A DNA stretch of 30,523 bases, from IMG/VR virus record IMGVR_UViG_3300032282_006650, positions 1-30,523 of that record. One strand, written 5' to 3'. Shown piece after piece: positions 12,412 through 27,528 of this stretch (positions within the stretch are counted from its first letter, which is position 1; every line of letters begins with the position of its first letter). A program made the position numbers and the translations under genes. A model generated the notes under the pieces. The model was given only the letters and a program-made list of their open reading frames with translations. It was not told the DNA's origin and did no database searches. This DNA is from a virus.

Positions 12412-12713
12412 TGACTGGTGATCCTGCATTTGGCATTAGCGCAGAGCGATCTGTTCAAGTTTTAATCGAAATGATCGATGACTTTCGTTACGATGAGGCA
12501 TCGGTATTTTTGTTTAATTTAAACAAAAACCATCCCGAAGAATGGGCCTACGTCAAAGATCGGCTCGTTAAAGTGGTGCCACGTTCGCAACTATCGGCGA
12601 TTGCAACCATCATTGATTGCTCTGCTCGTCCTGAGCTTTCTTCTTGTAATGCAGTAATTCCTGGCCTCAGCCAATACACGCATTACGTCGAAGATACAGA
12701 ACTGTTTGATTAA
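12411..12713 (+). CDS. Phage protein, function unknown
   Basis: A 100-residue acidic protein, TAATG-coupled to the previous gene. The N-terminal half looks helical (SAERSVQVLIEMIDDF, EASVFLFNLNKN), with no recognised motif. It lies immediately before the ribonucleotide reductase gene. Confidence 0.6.
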   Translation: MTGDPAFGISAERSVQVLIEMIDDFRYDEASVFLFNLNKNHPEEWAYVKDRLVKVVPRSQLSAIATIIDCSARPELSSCNAVIPGLSQYTHYVEDTELFD

Positions 12714-12756
12714 TTCTGCTGATCTAGGCAGTCTAACTTCACCGTCTTTCATTCTG

Positions 12757-15700
12757 ATGTCTGAATTCCGCGATTCCGCGCCGTCTGCTCCTGCCGTTTT
12801 TTATCGCAGCTATTCGCGTCGCAAGCCTGATGGCACCCGCGAGTCGTTTGCTGATGCCATTACCCGTACGGTGAACGATCTTGCGGATATTGGTAAGCTC
12901 ACCGATGAGCAGCGTGCGCTGTGCCTGGAGATGGGCCTGAAGCAGCATGCATTCCCCAGTGGTCGTGCACTGTGGGTAGCGGGCGCTGATTGGGCGAAGA
13001 AGCCGGAAAACTTTTCTGGCTACTACAATTGTCATGGTGGCGTACTGACCGGCACGCATGTCTTTGGTCGCCTCATGGACCTAGCCATGTGCGGTACGGG
13101 TACTGGCGTGCTGCTTGAAAAGCATCTTGTCGAGAAGCTGCCACCTGTTTGCCGTCATATCGAAGTTGTTGATGTTCTCGAAAACACTGGCGTCAAAGGT
13201 GGTAGTGAAGTTACGACTATTGCAAGGCAGGAAGATGGTGTCTACAGCCTGCAGGTCGGTGATTCGCGTAAGGGGTGGGTTGACGCCTATCAGGCGCTCA
13301 TCGACATCGCTATTCATGGAAGTCATATCGACACTGAATCTGATAAGGTTGAGGTCGTTCTTGATCTGACGCAGGTCCGCCAAAAGGGTCAGCGGCTCAA
13401 GGGCTTTGGTGGTGTTGCGAACCCTGTTAAGCTTGGGGAGGCCCTGCAGCGCGTCGCCAGTGTCCTGAACAGGGCTTTTGGCCGTAAGCTTACTCCTGTT
13501 GAATGTTGTCTTGTTGTTGATGAGGCGGCAAGCGCAGTCGTAGCAGGAAACCTCCGAAGAAGTGCGGGAATCCGCTTGTTCTCCAGTGATGACGAAGAGG
13601 CAAAAACTGCCAAACTTGGTCTGTACAAACAAGACCAAAATGGCAACTGGAGCGTAGATCCGGAGCGCGAATCGCTGCGGCTTGCAAATCATACGATCTG
13701 CTATCACCATAAACCCACCTATGAGGAACTGCTCGCTTCAGTGCGCCAGCAGTTTTATAGCGGAGAAGGTGCCATCCAATTTTCGCCCGAAGCCATTGCA
13801 CGTTCTAATGCTGATCTGATCGATAACGATAGGGTTCGCCGTGATTTCCTGAAAGTCTACACGACTGAAGGCAAGGAAGCTGGACGCGAGTTTCTCAAGA
13901 ATCTTTCTATCAAGAAAGGAATCGAGCATGATGATAAACTGCTTGATCATCGTATTACTCGTTATTCGGCCAATCCCTGCGCTTCGTACGAAAGTCTTTT
14001 GCTTACGGCTGATGGCTACAAGCAAATTGGCGAACTGGATGGGCAAACTGTTGATGTCATTAATTCCGAGGGTGAAGTTTCAACTGGTAAGGTTTGGTGC
14101 AGTGGTATCAAACAACTGAGCAAAATCACTCTTTCGAACTCTGAAAAGTTTCGCTTTACGAGTGATCATGTGTTCATGACGGAAGAAGGGCCTAAGAAAA
14201 TTGGCGAGGCAAAGGGGCTGAAGCTTGTTCCGTTCTTGAAGTATCCTGAGCACGACAAGGAATTTACGTGCCTTGGCTTTATCCAAGGGGACGGTCTCCT
14301 CACCGATGTCGCTAATGATTCCAAGCATGGTATTGGAGTTTATTTTGGCGCTAAGGATGACGATATCCGCAAGCTTTTCTTTGATTACGTCGACGAAGAG
14401 GACGTTGATGGCGATTCTATTGCTGTTTATGTGAGGAGTTTCAGGCAGCAAATTGATGATCTTAAGTTCAAGATTGCAAAAACATACGAAAGGGAGCTTC
14501 CTCTTACTTACGGCGAGTGGTCTAAGTCTCAGAAAGCAGCTTTCCTGTGTGGCCTTTATACGGCCAATGGGTCTGTCGTCAGTCCCTCCAACGCTGGCCG
14601 CGTTACGCTAAAGGCGACCAGCAAAAAGTTGATTGATCAAGTTAAGCAAAGCCTTTGCGATGACTTTGGTATTGAATCGTATGTTACAACGAACAAGCCC
14701 TCTGTTGTTCAGATTTCAAACGGTGTCTATACCTGTAAGCAAAGTTATGACCTGAATATCCAAAAGCATTTAGATCGTTGCAAGTTTTTTAACTCGATCA
14801 ACTTTGCAATTGGCTACAAAACAGAAAGGCTTGCGACTTGTCTTATTAACAAGGCTCCCTATGTACGCAGCGTCAAACCGGACAAAATCGAGCCTGTCTA
14901 TGACTTCTCGGAACCCCTCACGCATTGGGGCGTGATCAACGGATTCGTTGTTCACAACTGCCACGAGATCGTTGGCGATACATTCCAATGTAATCTTGGG
15001 GAAGTTCATCTTAATACGATCAATCCTGGCGACAAAGAAACGCAACATAAGGCGTTCTACTCGACGGGTCTCATGGTGGCCGCATTGCTGCAACACAAGT
15101 TCCCTGACGAAGAACTTCAGTATTCTCGTGAAGTTGATCCAATTGTTGCGGTTTGCCTTAGCGGCTTGTTTGATTTCTTCGTCCAGGCATTTGGCGTCGA
15201 ATGGCTTGATTGGATGGTGAAAGGTCGCAAGACTGGACGTAAGTTCAAGAAGTTTGTAGAGGCCGAACGACGTTATCTTGAATCTTGGCGTGAATCTGCG
15301 CGTCAGGGTGTTGCAGATTACTGTAAGCAAGCAGGGATCAAGATGCCAAACCGCTATACCGCCGTGCAGCCCTCTGGTTCCAAGGCTTTGCTTACCGGAG
15401 CATCTTCTGGCTGGCATCCGCCTAAATCTCAGCGTTTCATTCGTCGCATTACGTTTGGTATTGAAGATCCAATTGTAGCAGCGCTTCGCGACTACGGCTA
15501 CAACGTTGTTCCTGCGCAATCTGCCCGCGACGACGATGGTAACCTGCTGGATGACATCAGTGATCCTCGTGTGCGGGAGGTCTTGGTAGAGATTCCTACC
15601 GAAGTTTCCTGGGCCAACTTGCCTGAAGCTGATCAGTATGATCTGTCCCAGATTCCGGTCAAAAGCCAAATGGGCCTCTATATGCAGGTGCAGCGCCATT

Positions 15701-16065
15701 ATTCGACCCATACGACAAGCGCAACTGTTGAGTTTCGCGAACACGAAATTGAAACGCTTGCGAAGCTTGTGTATGACGAAATTCAAAATGACGGCGGCTA
15801 TATCGGTGTAGCTATGCTTGCCCGCTTCGATGCCAATGCGACCTTCCCTCGCCTGCCGTTTGAGCCGATCGACAAGGTCACCTACGACCGCCTAATGGCC
15901 CAGATCAAGGCCTATCGCGTCACCCTGCCGGAGGACGTGACGATCCTGGACCTGCTCAAGCCCTATGATCGCCCCGATCATGTGTTAGAACCTCAAGACA
16001 CCGCTTGCGCAAACGCAGCGTGCCTTGCTAAGATCGAGCAGGACCAAGCCAAAGGTCTGGTCTGA
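12757..16065 (+). CDS. Class II (B12-dependent) ribonucleotide reductase with intein
   Basis: The precursor of 1102 residues contains a 327-residue intein; the spliced enzyme has 775 residues, close to the monomeric Lactobacillus RTPR (739). Seen: redox Cys92 (YYNCHGG) and MCGTGTGVLLE; after splicing, the catalytic NPCHE with Asn406, thiyl-radical Cys408 and Glu410; the second redox cysteine in QCNLGE (Cys418); PSGSKALLTG near the substrate phosphate; and the C-terminal shuttle pair CANAAC (757/762). It reduces ribonucleotides using adenosylcobalamin, aided by the glutaredoxin. The 5' and 3' ends are richer in GC (about 60%) than the middle. The ATG at 12757 was chosen because the frame upstream overlaps the previous gene. 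Confidence 0.93.
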   Translation: MSEFRDSAPSAPAVFYRSYSRRKPDGTRESFADAITRTVNDLADIGKLTDEQRALCLEMGLKQHAFPSGRALWVAGADWAKKPENFSGYYNCHGGVLTGTHVFGRLMDLAMCGTGTGVLLEKHLVEKLPPVCRHIEVVDVLENTGVKGGSEVTTIARQEDGVYSLQVGDSRKGWVDAYQALIDIAIHGSHIDTESDKVEVVLDLTQVRQKGQRLKGFGGVANPVKLGEALQRVASVLNRAFGRKLTPVECCLVVDEAASAVVAGNLRRSAGIRLFSSDDEEAKTAKLGLYKQDQNGNWSVDPERESLRLANHTICYHHKPTYEELLASVRQQFYSGEGAIQFSPEAIARSNADLIDNDRVRRDFLKVYTTEGKEAGREFLKNLSIKKGIEHDDKLLDHRITRYSANPCASYESLLLTADGYKQIGELDGQTVDVINSEGEVSTGKVWCSGIKQLSKITLSNSEKFRFTSDHVFMTEEGPKKIGEAKGLKLVPFLKYPEHDKEFTCLGFIQGDGLLTDVANDSKHGIGVYFGAKDDDIRKLFFDYVDEEDVDGDSIAVYVRSFRQQIDDLKFKIAKTYERELPLTYGEWSKSQKAAFLCGLYTANGSVVSPSNAGRVTLKATSKKLIDQVKQSLCDDFGIESYVTTNKPSVVQISNGVYTCKQSYDLNIQKHLDRCKFFNSINFAIGYKTERLATCLINKAPYVRSVKPDKIEPVYDFSEPLTHWGVINGFVVHNCHEIVGDTFQCNLGEVHLNTINPGDKETQHKAFYSTGLMVAALLQHKFPDEELQYSREVDPIVAVCLSGLFDFFVQAFGVEWLDWMVKGRKTGRKFKKFVEAERRYLESWRESARQGVADYCKQAGIKMPNRYTAVQPSGSKALLTGASSGWHPPKSQRFIRRITFGIEDPIVAALRDYGYNVVPAQSARDDDGNLLDDISDPRVREVLVEIPTEVSWANLPEADQYDLSQIPVKSQMGLYMQVQRHYSTHTTSATVEFREHEIETLAKLVYDEIQNDGGYIGVAMLARFDANATFPRLPFEPIDKVTYDRLMAQIKAYRVTLPEDVTILDLLKPYDRPDHVLEPQDTACANAACLAKIEQDQAKGLV
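13978..14958 (+). other. Intein with LAGLIDADG endonuclease in the RNR
   Basis: 327 residues starting with Cys1 (ANP before it) and ending in His-Asn, followed by Cys as the +1 extein residue. Splicing blocks: CASYESLLLTADG at the start, TSDHVF (61-66, block B), and VYDFSEPLTHWG...GFVVHN at the end (blocks F and G). Endonuclease motifs: LGFIQGDGL at 99-107 and CGLYTANGSVV at 191-201. In the second motif Asn197 stands where an acidic residue is usual, so cleavage activity may be reduced. Insertion directly before the catalytic cysteine makes enzyme activity depend on splicing. Confidence 0.92.
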
Positions 16066-18566: not shown

Positions 18567-19316
18567 ATGTACTACACGTATGCGTATTTACGTGACGACG
18601 GGAGACCCTATTACATTGGCAAGGGTGTAAGGCGGAGGGCCTGGGTTCAAGGCGGCAGGTCGGTGCGAACACCGAAGGATCGCAATAAAATTCTAATACT
18701 AAAGAAGGGCTTAACGGAGGAGCAGGCCATTGACCACGAGAAGTATATGATCTTCGTCTTTGGCCGTCTTGATCTTGGTGCGGGAATTTTGCGCAATTTT
18801 ACGAATGGAGGTGAAGGGACATCTGGTAGGGTCTATAACAAGGAAACCAAAAAGAAGATCAGCACCAGTAGGCGTCTTTTCCTTGAGCGCAATCCTGACT
18901 TCAAGGTGGTCTACTCGGAAGAACGTCTGCTCAAAATGCAAGAGAGGATTTCTGGTAAAAACAACCCGATGTATGGCAGAACGCTATCAGATGAGCACAG
19001 GGCCAAGATTAGTGCCAGTCTTAAAGGGGAAAAGAATGGATTCTACGGAAAGTCGCATAGCGAAGAAACTAAAGCAAAAGTAAGTAAAATGAAGCGTGAC
19101 CTATTCAAAGAAAATCCGGGAGCGCTCCCCTGGGCGAAGACTTATATCTTGACCAGCCCGAACGGCCTTCAATATTGTGTTAGTGGTCGACTAGAGGCTT
19201 TTTGCAAGGAACATCAAATATCGTATAAAGGGATGAGGGCCGCCTTACACCGAAAACCAAACCGATCCTCGTCCGAATGGGTGGAGTATAATGAGACTGG
19301 AAAACCAATCAAATGA
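18567..19316 (+). CDS. GIY-YIG homing endonuclease with NUMOD3 repeats
   Basis: A 249-residue free-standing homing endonuclease. N-terminal GIY-YIG domain: TYAYLRDDGRPYYIGKG at 4-20, a conserved basic RRRAW, and an EKYMIFVFG stretch carrying the catalytic Glu. The DNA-binding part has NUMOD3-like repeats: KKKISTS, GKNNPMYGRTLSDEHRAKIS, GEKNGFYGKSHSEETKAKVS. A C-terminal helix-turn-helix-like module follows (LEAFCKEHQISYKGMRAAL). It begins 12 bases after the portal stop. Its end overlaps a duplicated portal tail, marking it as an insertion in the portal gene's end. Confidence 0.88.
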   Translation: MYYTYAYLRDDGRPYYIGKGVRRRAWVQGGRSVRTPKDRNKILILKKGLTEEQAIDHEKYMIFVFGRLDLGAGILRNFTNGGEGTSGRVYNKETKKKISTSRRLFLERNPDFKVVYSEERLLKMQERISGKNNPMYGRTLSDEHRAKISASLKGEKNGFYGKSHSEETKAKVSKMKRDLFKENPGALPWAKTYILTSPNGLQYCVSGRLEAFCKEHQISYKGMRAALHRKPNRSSSEWVEYNETGKPIK

Positions 19317-23885: not shown

Positions 23886-24524
23886 TTATTTTGGCCATAG
23901 ATTTGCGCTTTTAGTATAAACTAGCTTTCCTTTTAATGAAGTCTTCTTGAGACTCGTTGGCCAGTCTGCCATTCCTGTAACGCCAGCGTCCTTTGTGGAA
24001 TAAAAGATCTTGAGGACAGTTGTTTTTATTCGATCCCTGAGCGCACAACTACTAATGCCTGACGCTTTTGATGCATCTTCAAGGCACATTTTCTTGCCAT
24101 TGTACTCAAGTATAACATTATTTCTTTTATTTCGGCATTGCTCTTTATGTGTCGCCCAACGGACATTGCCAGGTTCATAATGACCATTTACGTCAATGCG
24201 ATCGAGTGTTTTCCCTTCTGGGCAAGGACCTATTTCTGCCAAAAACTGCTCATACAATTCAAACCTAAACTCAACATGCGAATAAGCATTCTGGTGATTA
24301 ATTGCAACCCTTTGTTTTGCTTTGTTATATGACGAATATGCACCTTGGTTTATCCTTAAGTCTTCCGGCGCTTTTTTCTTTCTTGTTTTGGACCTTGGCA
24401 CGCATTTCCTGCAGTATGGAGGGCGACCTTGTTTTGCGAGCTTAGTAAAAACATCTTTTCTAGCAATTCTGCTTTGTTTGCATATAGGGCAGGTCACTTC
24501 TATATAAGAATGATGGGCGGCCAT
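23886..24524 (-). CDS. HNH homing endonuclease
   Basis: A 212-residue endonuclease. An N-terminal zinc finger (CPICKQS at 12-18 and CRKC at about 38-41) precedes a basic linker. The HNH core reads CPEGKTLDRIDVNGHYEPGNVRWATHKEQCRNKRNN, with the Asp/His-Asn pattern of AP2/HNH-type homing enzymes. A C-terminal helix-turn-helix-like part follows (LEDASKASGISSCALRDRI). It sits between two conserved small phage genes, both disrupted, so it probably inserted into that gene pair. Confidence 0.82.
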   Translation of the reverse strand: MAAHHSYIEVTCPICKQSRIARKDVFTKLAKQGRPPYCRKCVPRSKTRKKKAPEDLRINQGAYSSYNKAKQRVAINHQNAYSHVEFRFELYEQFLAEIGPCPEGKTLDRIDVNGHYEPGNVRWATHKEQCRNKRNNVILEYNGKKMCLEDASKASGISSCALRDRIKTTVLKIFYSTKDAGVTGMADWPTSLKKTSLKGKLVYTKSANLWPK

Positions 24525-25080: not shown

Positions 25081-25231
25081 ATGCATATAAGCCGGTCAGA
25101 ACAGGTGTTCAGAGTCGCCTTATAAGCGATTTGCCCCAGATTAGGGCCTTTGGCAGGGATCGTTACCCTGGATCGGTATAGTGACGATATCTTCCAGTAA
25201 AGCACTCAAACTGAGTCGGTATGCTGAGAGT
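25081..25231 (+). other. Non-coding leader before the tRNA genes
   Basis: I see no protein gene here. It holds two hairpins. ATCGTTAC (25159-25166) pairs with GTGACGAT (25181-25188, one G-U). AGCACTC (25201-25207) pairs with GAGTGCT (25228-25234), enclosing a TATGCT and running into the first tRNA base pairs. CAGGG/CCCTG around a 7-base loop (25154-25170) resembles an anticodon arm, so this may be tRNA debris. Confidence 0.4.
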
Positions 25232-25304
25232 GCTCGCGTAGCCCAACGGCAGGAGGCAAGGGAATTAGAATCCCTACAGTGCGCGTTCGAATCGCGTCGC
25301 GAGC
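25232..25304 (+). tRNA. tRNA with anticodon UAG and a short variable loop
   Basis: Cloverleaf seen by eye: acceptor GCTCGCG/CGCGAGC (7 pairs), D-stem GCC/GGC, anticodon stem AGGGA/TCCCT with loop ATTAGAA (anticodon TAG), variable region ACAGT, T-stem GCGCG/CGCGT around TTCGAAT, discriminator A at 25305. UAG reads the Leu codon CUA, but Leu tRNAs normally have a long variable arm and this one has five bases. The amino acid it carries is therefore uncertain. Confidence 0.8.
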
Positions 25305-25305
25305 A

Positions 25306-25315
25306 TGCTATACTG
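25306..25315 (+). promoter_or_regulatory. Extended -10 promoter TGCTATACTG
   Basis: TGC plus TATACT (25309-25314), fused to the 3' end of the preceding tRNA and 12 bases before tRNA-Leu. The same ten bases occur on the minus strand before the opposite tRNA set. Confidence 0.55.
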
Positions 25316-25326
25316 TGCAGGTACCA

Positions 25327-25620
25327 GGGAACGTGGTGGAACAGGTAGACACAACGCACTTAGAAAATTGAGCTCCATTGGGGAAACCCTTTGGATGAAA
25401 TCCCTCAAATTCGGGGAAACCTAAACCGATTAATCGGTATGGCAATCCCGAGCGAAGCCTGTGAACGCAGGAACGTGTAGAGATCAGACGGGGGACACCT
25501 AAGCCGAAAGGTATGGTGAAGGGATGATCCAGACTACAAACGAGCAATCGGCGGGGAAATCCGTAGTGGTAAGAAAATGCGTCGGCCTTTGGCCATGGGA
25601 GTTCGAGCCTCCCCGTTCCT
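25327..25620 (+). tRNA. trnL-UAA: tRNA-Leu(UAA) with group I intron
   Basis: Exon 1 is 25327-25361 and exon 2 is 25574-25620. Spliced structure: acceptor GGGAACG/CGTTCCT (first pair G-U), D-stem GTG/CAC, anticodon stem ACGCA/TGCGT with loop CTTAAAA (anticodon TAA), long variable arm GGCC-TTT-GGCC, T-stem GGGAG/CTCCC around TTCGAGC, discriminator A at 25621. The split lies after U34, the classic position in cyanobacterial and plastid trnL-UAA. It reads UUA codons, which should be common in this phage relative to a GC-rich host. Confidence 0.9.
25362..25573 (+). ncRNA. Group I intron of tRNA-Leu(UAA)
   Basis: 212 bases between U34 and A35 of the tRNA. The preceding exon base is U and the last intron base is G, as group I splicing requires. 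Core elements are visible: AATTCGGGGAAACCTAAACC (P region), GGCAATCCCGAGC (Q), GTGTAGAGATCAGACGG (R), and a late AAGGTATGGTGAAGG...GATCC stretch (S region). No ORF lies inside it. It starts AGAAAATTGAGC, close to the AAAATTGAGC start of cyanobacterial trnL introns. Confidence 0.88.
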
Positions 25621-25637
25621 ATTCCTTTAATTACAAA

Positions 25638-25898
25638 ATGAGCAAGTTCGTCTTTGTTACTGGTGGTGTTGTTTCCGGTATCGGCAAAGGTATCGTTGCT
25701 GCCAGTCTTGGGCGGTTGCTCAAAAGCCGTGGTTACACTGTTTCGATTCTTAAATTAGATCCGTACTTGAATATCGATCCAGGTACGATGAGTCCGTATC
25801 AACATGGTGAAGTATTTGTCACCGAAGATGGGGCAGGCATCGAACCTGCAGAGGCCAGTCCCGATGGAACTGCCGGGACTTCCCCCGGAATGCACTGA
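25638..25898 (+). pseudogene. 5' fragment of CTP synthase gene pyrG
   Basis: The first 66 codons (25638-25835) read as the N-terminus of CTP synthase: [47 protein letters not shown] and [15 protein letters not shown] synthase is normally above 530 residues. Homology stops at GGGGCA, and 20 unrelated codons follow before a TGA at 25896. The fragment holds part of the ATP-binding amidoligase domain only and cannot be active. It lies 17 bases after tRNA-Leu and before an AT-rich HNH element. Codon use is phage-like, not GC-rich. Confidence 0.85.
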
Positions 25899-25944
25899 TA
25901 GTATACCAATGGATGTTGCAAAAATTTTTAATTTTCCTAAAAAT

Positions 25945-26424
25945 TTATAGAATTTCTTTATTTATCTGATTTCTTTGCCTAATTGTTCTTCCGTTCCCCC
26001 AATTTCTTGCTTTATATGTTGATGTTTGAGAGTGGCAATTTGGACAAATAAATCTAAGGTTGCTAGGTCTGTCATTGTATGGATTGCCATCAATATGATC
26101 AATTTCTAAGACGATCGTATTGCAATTCCATTTATTAATTTTACAACATGAACATTGATAGCCTTGCGCTTCTGTTAAATAATCTCTCAGGGCTATTTTC
26201 CCAGGTTTTCTGCCTCCAAGCATCCACTCTTTAATGCGTTGATTCTTTTGAAAGTTTTTTTGACAAATATTGGAGCAGTATTTTCCTATCTGACTTCCTG
26301 GATTGTATCTAAAATTTTTGTTGCAATGACAACAGGTTCCTATTATGGATTTTTCTAATTTTCTTTTTGGATAAACTTTATTATTGTACGTAGCAGCACA
26401 TTTTTTTACTACAGAAAGCTGGAT
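25945..26424 (-). CDS. HNH endonuclease, start unresolved
   Basis: The clear HNH core lies in the last 92 codons: CSCCKI, LEIDHIDGNPYNDRPSNLRFICPNCHSQT, YKARN. The frame stays open for 67 more codons upstream of the first ATG (26223). It encodes a plausible zinc finger (TCCHCNKNF, GKYCSNICQKNFQ) as in longer phage HNH proteins, but no ATG, GTG or TTG opens it before a stop near 26427. An A7 run at the expected start (26401-26407) may carry an indel, or an unusual start codon is used. The block is much richer in AT than its surroundings, suggesting recent transfer. Confidence 0.7.
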   Translation of the reverse strand: MQLSVVKKCAATYNNKVYPKRKLEKSIIGTCCHCNKNFRYNPGSQIGKYCSNICQKNFQKNQRIKEWMLGGRKPGKIALRDYLTEAQGYQCSCCKINKWNCNTIVLEIDHIDGNPYNDRPSNLRFICPNCHSQTSTYKARNWGNGRTIRQRNQINKEIL

Positions 26425-26512
26425 TTTTTGTCAGCGCATTGCACTGTTTGCAATTCTTTTCTATAGAATTGGTCATACTACTGATTCGAACTTCAGTAGT
26501 ATTCCTAATAAC

Positions 26513-26585
26513 ACCCCGACCTGGATTCGAACCAGGGGCACGCGAGGTAGAAACTCGCTGCTCTCATCCACTGAGCTACCGGGGC
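26513..26585 (-). tRNA. tRNA-Arg(UCU)
   Basis: Minus-strand cloverleaf: acceptor GCCCCGG/TCGGGGT (two G-U ends), D-stem GCTC/GAGC, anticodon stem GCGAG/CTCGC with loop TTTCTAC (anticodon TCT), variable GTGCC, T-stem CCTGG/CCAGG around TTCGAAT. It reads AGA, a rare codon in GC-rich hosts. Confidence 0.9.
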
Positions 26586-26587
26586 AA

Positions 26588-26702: not shown

Positions 26703-26712
26703 CAGTATAGCA
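26703..26712 (-). promoter_or_regulatory. Extended -10 promoter TGCTATACTG (minus strand)
   Basis: Identical to the motif at 25306-25315 but on the opposite strand, reading into the tRNA-like sequence, tRNA-Arg and the HNH gene. Confidence 0.6.
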
Positions 26713-26720
26713 CATACACC

Positions 26721-26743
26721 AAAGGCCCCCTTTTCAGGGAGCC
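26721..26743 (-). terminator. Probable terminator of the phosphoesterase operon
   Basis: On the minus strand GGCTCCCT pairs with AGGGGGCC (one G-U) around GAAA, followed by TTTGG. The short T-run makes it moderate. The minus-strand tRNA promoter begins 9 bases later. Confidence 0.5.
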
Positions 26744-26805
26744 GATGGAAGACCAGGATGTCGGACCTGGTTGTGATGGCCACTGTGGGGGCCATCACCT
26801 ACATA

Positions 26806-27360
26806 TTATACAGGCCTCGGGCCGGATTCGTCAAGTTGCTGCCGAAAACGGAGTTTCACCTCCTCCCAGGCGATCGGTGCGTAGTTCGTGTGTTCTACGC
26901 AAACGCAGAGGTAGCGAGGGTCAATCTGACCAAGATCCATGACGCGCTTCCAGTGGAGGTGACCATGAATATTGCCGTCAAAATTCCGCAGGCTATCGGG
27001 ATGGATCGGAACATGACTCAGCGTGAAGTTATCAAGCTTCCAGTAAGCCCTGACTGAGCGAAAGTGCTTACCAAGGTGTTTCTCCCAAGGCCAGTCATGA
27101 TTGCCAGCGATAAGAACCTTGTCACCATTAAGCCTATAGAGGACATCGAGGCCAGCGCGAGGCATTGCTACATCGCCGAGGTGATAGACCTTGTCAGTGG
27201 GCTTGACGACAGCATTCCACCGCCTGATCATTTCTTCATCAGCCTCTTCCACGGAAGACCATGGACGTAGCAGTGTGCCATCAGCCCGCAGGAAGGGCTT
27301 TTCGTACATTGCTCTGTGGCCAAAATGGGTATCGGAAACTAGGAAGACGTTTTTTGTCAT
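26806..27360 (-). CDS. Calcineurin-like metallophosphoesterase
   Basis: A 184-residue metallophosphoesterase with all family motifs in order: SDTHFGH (Asp10, His12), HLGDVAMP (Asp63), AGNHDW (Asn87, His88), LSHVPIHP (His116, His120) and NIHGHLH (His132, His134). It may act as a phosphodiesterase or phosphatase; the substrate is not evident. The ATG at 27360 follows the stop of a small membrane protein by 10 bases. An upstream TTG at 27381 would overlap it. The gene points against the flanking plus-strand genes. Confidence 0.88.
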   Translation of the reverse strand: MTKNVFLVSDTHFGHRAMYEKPFLRADGTLLRPWSSVEEADEEMIRRWNAVVKPTDKVYHLGDVAMPRAGLDVLYRLNGDKVLIAGNHDWPWEKHLGKHFRSVRAYWKLDNFTLSHVPIHPDSLRNFDGNIHGHLHWKRVMDLGQIDPRYLCVCVEHTNYAPIAWEEVKLRFRQQLDESGPRPV

Positions 27361-27370
27361 GGTAGCGCGG

Positions 27371-27466
27371 CTAACGCGCAAATTTTAACACAGTAGCGAT
27401 GGCAAAGCACAGCATCGCCAGGCCAATGCAATCAAGGGCGGCCTTGGTGTATTCTGGGTTGACCAT
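27371..27466 (-). CDS. Small single-span membrane protein
   Basis: 31 residues: MVNPEYTKAALD, a hydrophobic helix CIGLAMLCFAIATVL, and a KFAR end. It lies directly before the phosphoesterase on the same strand and was probably missed by length cut-offs. Function unknown. Confidence 0.5.
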   Translation of the reverse strand: MVNPEYTKAALDCIGLAMLCFAIATVLKFAR

Positions 27467-27528
27467 GAACTTAAGATCAGCGTCTAAGTAAGACTACCCA
27501 CTGCGTCGGCATGTTTTGATTTGCAAAC

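Follow-up and report, generated by a model that had tools for sequence, protein, structure and literature searches.

Does a tRNA-Leu(UAA) gene of a phage, split by a group I intron at the site known from cyanobacteria, mean that the trnL intron which cyanobacteria inherit vertically is also carried by phages? The question is raised by a locus in the IMG/VR virus record IMGVR_UViG_3300032282_006650, whose 30,523 nt were analysed as a whole and are referred to here as the window. Group I introns are well known from tRNA genes of bacteria and from protein genes of phages. According to the 2014 review of Hausner et al., all phage introns observed to date lay in protein genes, despite the many tRNA genes that phages carry (PMC3984707). 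Our survey of open-access texts yielded no account of tRNA genes split by group I introns in phages. The evidence presented below makes it likely that the window contains a cyanophage tRNA-Leu(UAA) gene with a group I intron of a phage family, predicted to splice itself out and brought in by the recent transfer of a tRNA/pyrG block, and not a captured cyanobacterial trnL gene.

The split tRNA-Leu(UAA) gene

With introns allowed, ARAGORN assigns positions 25327–25621 to a tRNA-Leu(UAA) gene interrupted after U34, and before A35, by an intron of 212 nt, and the spliced 83-mer folds into a class II cloverleaf (-28.7 kcal/mol). Both results agree with the preliminary description of this DNA, in which the exons gave a complete class II tRNA-Leu once the 212-base insert was removed. 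The gene order, absent from that description, places a tRNA-Leu(UAG) gene before the split gene and a truncated pyrG after it. The tRNA and endonuclease features of the locus are the following:

25231–25306 (+): tRNA-Leu(UAG), inside the same presumably transferred block (ARAGORN; Rfam tRNA, 52 bits)
25327–25361 (+): 5' exon of tRNA-Leu(UAA), ending ..GCACUU (U34) (ARAGORN with introns; spliced fold)
25362–25573 (+): group I intron, 212 nt, without an ORF (Rfam RF00028; covariation counts)
25574–25621 (+): 3' exon of tRNA-Leu(UAA), from A35 onward, CCA not encoded (ARAGORN; spliced fold)
25945–26223 (-): free-standing HNH endonuclease ORF, 92 aa (phrog_10822, E = 6e-25)
26511–26586 (-): tRNA-Arg(UCU), without intron (ARAGORN; Rfam)

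UUA accounts for 0–2% of the Leu codons in GC-rich picocyanobacterial pyrG genes, whereas UUA and UUG account for 6% and 14% in the phage (small samples, set against a host group rather than an identified host, and with AT-rich Prochlorococcus being a heavy UUA user). Since UUA is rare in the former and commoner in the phage, the tRNA-Leu(UAA) may serve translation.

A full-length group I intron with a conserved core

In a 1-kb search, the Rfam model Intron_gpI (RF00028) matched positions 25352–25544 over its whole length (1–253) with 45.9 bits (E = 2.7e-10). This value lies just below the RF00028 gathering score of 50, so a default Rfam scan misses the intron and a permissive scan detects it. 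The preliminary description had counted a score below threshold as evidence against its reading; formally the score is of that kind, but it is overridden by comparative evidence of pairing. Eight phage tRNA introns were aligned to a 53-pair group I structure that includes the P3/P7 pseudoknot. Standard pairs occupy 94.7% of the cells of this structure (shuffled mean, 77.4%), and two-sided changes are found at 34 pairs (shuffled mean, 17.1). None of 500 shuffles attained any of the covariation measures, and slid structures were only 30–43% paired. P3 and P7 are paired in 100% of the cells, with two-sided change at five and three pairs, respectively. P7 is GATCA/TGATC in the window phage and its near-identical relative L178, and GACTA/TAGTC, GACTT/AAGTC or GGCTT/AAGTC in other phage introns. 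As read from the sequence, the CUU/GAG pairing of P1 places a U.G wobble at the 5' splice site (..CUU^A..GAG, the caret marking the site), and the last base of the intron is G25573. The core elements were placed by pair counts, and the terminal G by sequence:

25376–25382/25387–25393 (+): P2
25401–25406/25490–25495 (+): P3
25411–25416/25446–25451 (+): P4
25420–25421/25441–25442 (+): P5
25452–25454/25474–25476 (+): P6
25482–25486/25525–25529 (+): P7
25496–25499/25515–25518 (+): P8
25533–25537/25566–25570 (+): P9.0/P9
25573 (+): terminal G

The insert is a real, full-length group I intron all the same, and the whole-model match, the covariation and the final G25573 bear out its earlier assignment as a group I intron placed after U34 and ending in G. 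A presumed resemblance to the tRNA introns of Azoarcus and Synechococcus makes it a candidate for subgroup IC3.

The tRNA or the intron could instead be a decaying remnant that no longer works, as the Rfam score under the gathering threshold, the truncation of the adjoining pyrG and the degenerate look of a nearby tRNA-Phe-like element would allow. We consider such decay improbable, because pairing in P7, P3 and P9b is kept by compensatory changes, the difference from L178 at position 25535 retains a G.U pair in P9, and the spliced tRNA is intact.

Cyanophage context and a block probably exchanged recently

The 30.5-kb IMG/VR contig encodes a terminase, a portal protein (DUF4055), a primase, a thymidylate synthase and a class II ribonucleotide reductase, and the closest phages for its genes are the Synechococcus phages S-CRES and S-CBS2. 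The virus is a siphovirus-like cyanophage related to S-CBS2. The alignment of its class II ribonucleotide reductase ORF (12706–16065, +, 1119 aa) with phage homologues falls into two segments, as it would if the ORF contained an intein.

The relative L178 (IMGVR_UViG_3300032233_003111) is collinear with the window, with a nucleotide identity of ~63–74% over most of the shared length and of 86% over window positions 26703–27501. The region of the split tRNA gene compares with L178 as follows:

25091–25836 (+): block near-identical to L178, 2 differences in 746 nt, both intronic (25364 and 25535) (alignment)
25638–25835 (+): pyrG (CTP synthase), first 66 codons, after which the frame is non-homologous and stops at 25898 (PF06418, E = 9e-35)
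25831–25836 (no strand): deletion junction, ~2.4 kb relative to L178, with shared GGGCAG (comparison with L178)

At the junction, codon 66 of the window pyrG joins sequence homologous to L178:4527 over the 6-base GGGCAG overlap, and in L178 a complete pyrG of 534 aa (L178 1926–3530) stands behind the split tRNA gene. An att-site origin of trnL plus pyrG was dropped as a candidate on account of this complete gene. Given a near-identical block in otherwise divergent phages, we infer that the block was exchanged recently and that the window subsequently lost most of its pyrG.

A sharp jump of identity at the block edges and a broken pyrG reading frame, in a record that is metagenomic, might also be expected if host DNA had been joined to a phage contig by chimeric assembly or contamination. 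This is very improbable, since the divergent second contig L178 has the block in syntenic position, flanked by collinear phage genes, an overlap of 6 bases is less than an assembler would need to make a join, and none of the cellular homologues compared exceeds 79% identity to the phage pyrG. The phage pyrG groups with Prochlorococcus/Synechococcus (SH-aLRT 100), which points to these as the probable host lineage. ARAGORN found no intron-bearing tRNA in the viral pyrG contigs L369–L380 and no tRNA-Leu beside pyrG in the cyanobacterial pyrG loci L002–L038, and the latter result argues against a simple chromosomal capture.

Further tRNA-like sequences were observed in this region. Positions 25091–25178 (+), which begin exactly where near-identity with L178 starts, form a cloverleaf-like sequence with a 7-bp acceptor, an anticodon-like UAU and a long variable arm that both ARAGORN and Rfam miss; it has the variable-arm letters CCAGATTAG in common with a 93-nt tRNA-Ile(UAU) of L206. 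A tRNA-Phe(GAA)-like element at 25828–25910 (-), apparently degenerate, has its 3' end at the pyrG deletion junction, and its counterpart in L206 is called as a 93-nt tRNA-Phe.

The intron lies outside the cyanobacterial trnL clade

The preliminary description had called the intron cyanobacterial-type and had seen in the phage a direct route of movement for an intron regarded as vertically inherited. Insertion after U34 of tRNA-Leu(UAA) is indeed shared with cyanobacteria; lineage placement and signatures are not. For the trees, a first set of introns was collected by means of a core pattern that the phage and cyanobacterial types share, and the 30 cyanobacterial trnL introns included were the best BLAST matches to the window among 386 genomes. 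All 30 form a single clade (100/100) that leaves the window intron outside; a tree of trnL-UAA introns had been suggested as a check. Besides the near-identical L178, the nearest kin of the window intron are two phage introns, one in a tRNA-Arg(UCU) gene and one in a tRNA-Leu gene, within a set of phage introns whose deep branches have weak support. Forcing the window and L178 together with the cyanobacterial introns L221, L222 and L232 was 47 log units worse and was rejected (AU p = 0.0017); a position of the window as sister to the whole cyanobacterial trnL clade was not rejected (AU p = 0.44).

The signatures of the window, GTGTAGAG and CCAGACyACAAAC..GTGGTAAG, are of the phage type, and the cyanobacterial signatures GTGCAGAG and CCAATTCTCAAA..GAGAATG are absent from it. 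Among the 386 cyanobacterial genomes, 43 contain the cyanobacterial signature and one contains the phage-type signature, this single match being a tRNA-fMet intron amid ordinary chromosomal genes. There, at L386 8195–8580 (-), the chromosomal tRNA-fMet(CAU) gene carries a ~310-nt intron with a phage-type 3' end. An RF00028 search of 250 genomes of the likely host order detected no group I intron, with a positive result for the Synechococcus elongatus control.

Capture of a piece of cyanobacterial chromosome, bearing pyrG and trnL(UAA) with its vertically inherited intron, is an extension of the preliminary reading. It would explain the identical insertion site and the grouping of the adjoining pyrG with picocyanobacteria, and a placement next to the cyanobacterial trnL clade as its sister, which the AU test does not reject, is in its favour. 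Nevertheless, capture from the host appears unlikely in view of the 0 of 250 host-order genomes with a group I intron, the lack of an ARAGORN tRNA-Leu beside pyrG in the cyanobacterial loci L002–L038, the rejected nesting with the closest cyanobacterial introns and the phage-type P9 and J signatures of the window. Taken together, the separate clade, the phage signatures and the empty host-order genomes indicate that the window does not reveal a direct path along which the vertically inherited trnL intron would move, and on these comparisons the label cyanobacterial-type is mostly wrong.

An intron family in phage tRNA genes

Contrary to the earlier impression that there was no close phage precedent, other viral contigs and the huge phages LR756501 and LR756511 also have this gene interrupted at this position. 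The phage-type 3' motif matches 111 stretches of viral contigs, a set biased to the phage type because it was gathered with this very motif. Exon sequences typed 109 of these matches, many of them near-copies, as tRNA-Leu(UAA) (54), tRNA-Arg(UCU) (33), CAU tRNAs (15) and others (7). Where ARAGORN called intron-bearing tRNAs as Ser(aga), Tyr(ata) or SeC, it had misplaced the boundaries, and the exons were used to correct the type where possible. The family end is CCAGACyNCAAAC..GTAGTGGTAAG, and the window reads CCAGACTACAAAC..GTAGTGGTAAG within 25529–25573, one base off the exact search pattern (A for G) at a position of P7 that has co-varied. Sampled family loci bear tail, baseplate, DNA polymerase, ribonucleotide reductase or RNA ligase genes. 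The tRNA types are intermixed on the intron tree (15 changes vs. a minimum of 4, weakly supported), and at L145 3526–5060 and L200 784–2316 at least two split tRNAs (Arg UCU and Leu UAA) with group I introns lie within 2 kb. A third intron-like call in the L145/L200 region, SeC, has uncertain boundaries. A plasmid search with the intron region of a phage CAU tRNA gave no match. In Pelagibacter phage HTVC120P (L366 1501–1651) and phage KM23-C739 (L367 1501–1576), a similar intron core lies between two capsid-annotated ORFs and is probably a group I intron of a capsid gene.

HNH endonucleases are encoded within the trnL(UAA) introns of L094, L087, L157, L179, L106, L252, L297 and L322, and the larger introns of the family (605–844 nt) contain HNH, LAGLIDADG or, by eye, PD-(D/E)XK-like reading frames. 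The window intron has no endonuclease gene within its 212 nt, and most family members found are ~200 nt long. The free-standing HNH ORF of the window lies 324 bp downstream of the split tRNA-Leu(UAA) gene; its best PHROG family, 10822, is also that of the intron-borne HNH proteins of L094 and L106, and its tblastn matches to intron-borne HNH genes (37–51% identity) also include L087, L157, L179 and L252. Further homing/HNH endonuclease ORFs of the window are located at 18567–19316 (+) and 23886–24524 (-).

Proposed splicing, spread and significance

We propose that the window intron derives from a phage-wide family residing in tRNA anticodon loops (Leu UAA, Arg UCU, CAU tRNAs and others). In the usual group I reaction, exogenous GTP would attack the 5' splice site at the P1 U.G pair and the freed exon would then attack after the terminal G, removing the intron and leaving a mature tRNA-Leu for UUA/UUG codons. 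Family members bearing an endonuclease would spread between phages by homing. The window intron would be a mobile element whose endonuclease gene was lost or never present, and which may travel with the tRNA block or be aided by nearby HNH proteins. Its arrival, in the window phage or in L178, would be recent, via a tRNA/pyrG block swapped between cyanophages. More tentatively, and as a possibility that we hold somewhat short of even, phages may keep their own mobile intron family, specialised for tRNA anticodon loops, whose members with HNH, LAGLIDADG or other endonucleases would have passed among tRNA-Leu, tRNA-Arg, CAU tRNA and other sites; phages would then act as a reservoir for sporadic bacterial tRNA introns such as that of the cyanobacterial tRNA-fMet.

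Alternatively, the intron might be retained for an advantage to the phage, for example a slower or GTP-dependent maturation of tRNA-Leu, or protection of the anticodon loop against host nucleases or integrases up to the moment of splicing. Phage tRNAs are employed against tRNA-cleaving defences (PMC13096335), and both the intron and the tRNA remain intact. We find a benefit of this kind unlikely, however, as the more distant relatives L204, L205 and L206 have the same tRNA-Leu(UAA) without an intron, and the relatives with endonucleases point to selfish spread. It can now be tested directly whether such introns spread selfishly or help the phage with its tRNA supply or with evading defences, and whether phages drive the spread of tRNA introns.

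In the view of the review, tRNA genes are places that phage group I introns avoid (PMC3984707); the window and more than 100 viral contigs show otherwise. Public database records with phage tRNA introns exist, for instance a 286-nt tRNA-Arg. The findings on the window also correct an attractive misreading, in which the vertically inherited trnL intron of cyanobacteria is carried by phages.

Comparison with known systems

The cyanobacterial trnL(UAA) intron shares with the window intron the gene, the position after U34, a similar size and a similar core. It differs in belonging to a separate clade and in its P9 pairing and 3' end, with GTGCAGAG where the window has GTGTAGAG, and with an A-U pair in P4 where the window has C-G. 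The cyanobacterial tRNA-fMet(CAU) intron of L386 shows the phage-type P9 and 3' end (GACCACAAAC..GTAGTGGTAAG), but it resides in another tRNA, is 312 nt long and sits on a long tree branch.

The closest parallels in gene and site are the huge phages LR756501 (735 kb) and LR756511 (595 kb), whose tRNA-Leu(UAA) genes are split at the site of the window by introns of 205 and 700 nt, respectively. LR756501 matches the window at 67.7% over the gene, and LR756511 encodes an HNH endonuclease in its 700-nt intron, unlike the ORF-less intron of the window. The main text of the study on huge phages does not contain the word 'intron' (PMC7162821). In Microcoleus phage My-WqHQDG (OR578706), a tRNA-Arg annotated as 286 nt harbours a 213-nt intron and is split like the window gene, although the tRNA and the phage group are different. 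Finally, the introns of T4 td/nrd, SPO1, Twort and S-PM2 psbA are phage group I introns like that of the window, often with homing endonucleases, but they interrupt protein genes, whereas the window intron interrupts a tRNA gene.
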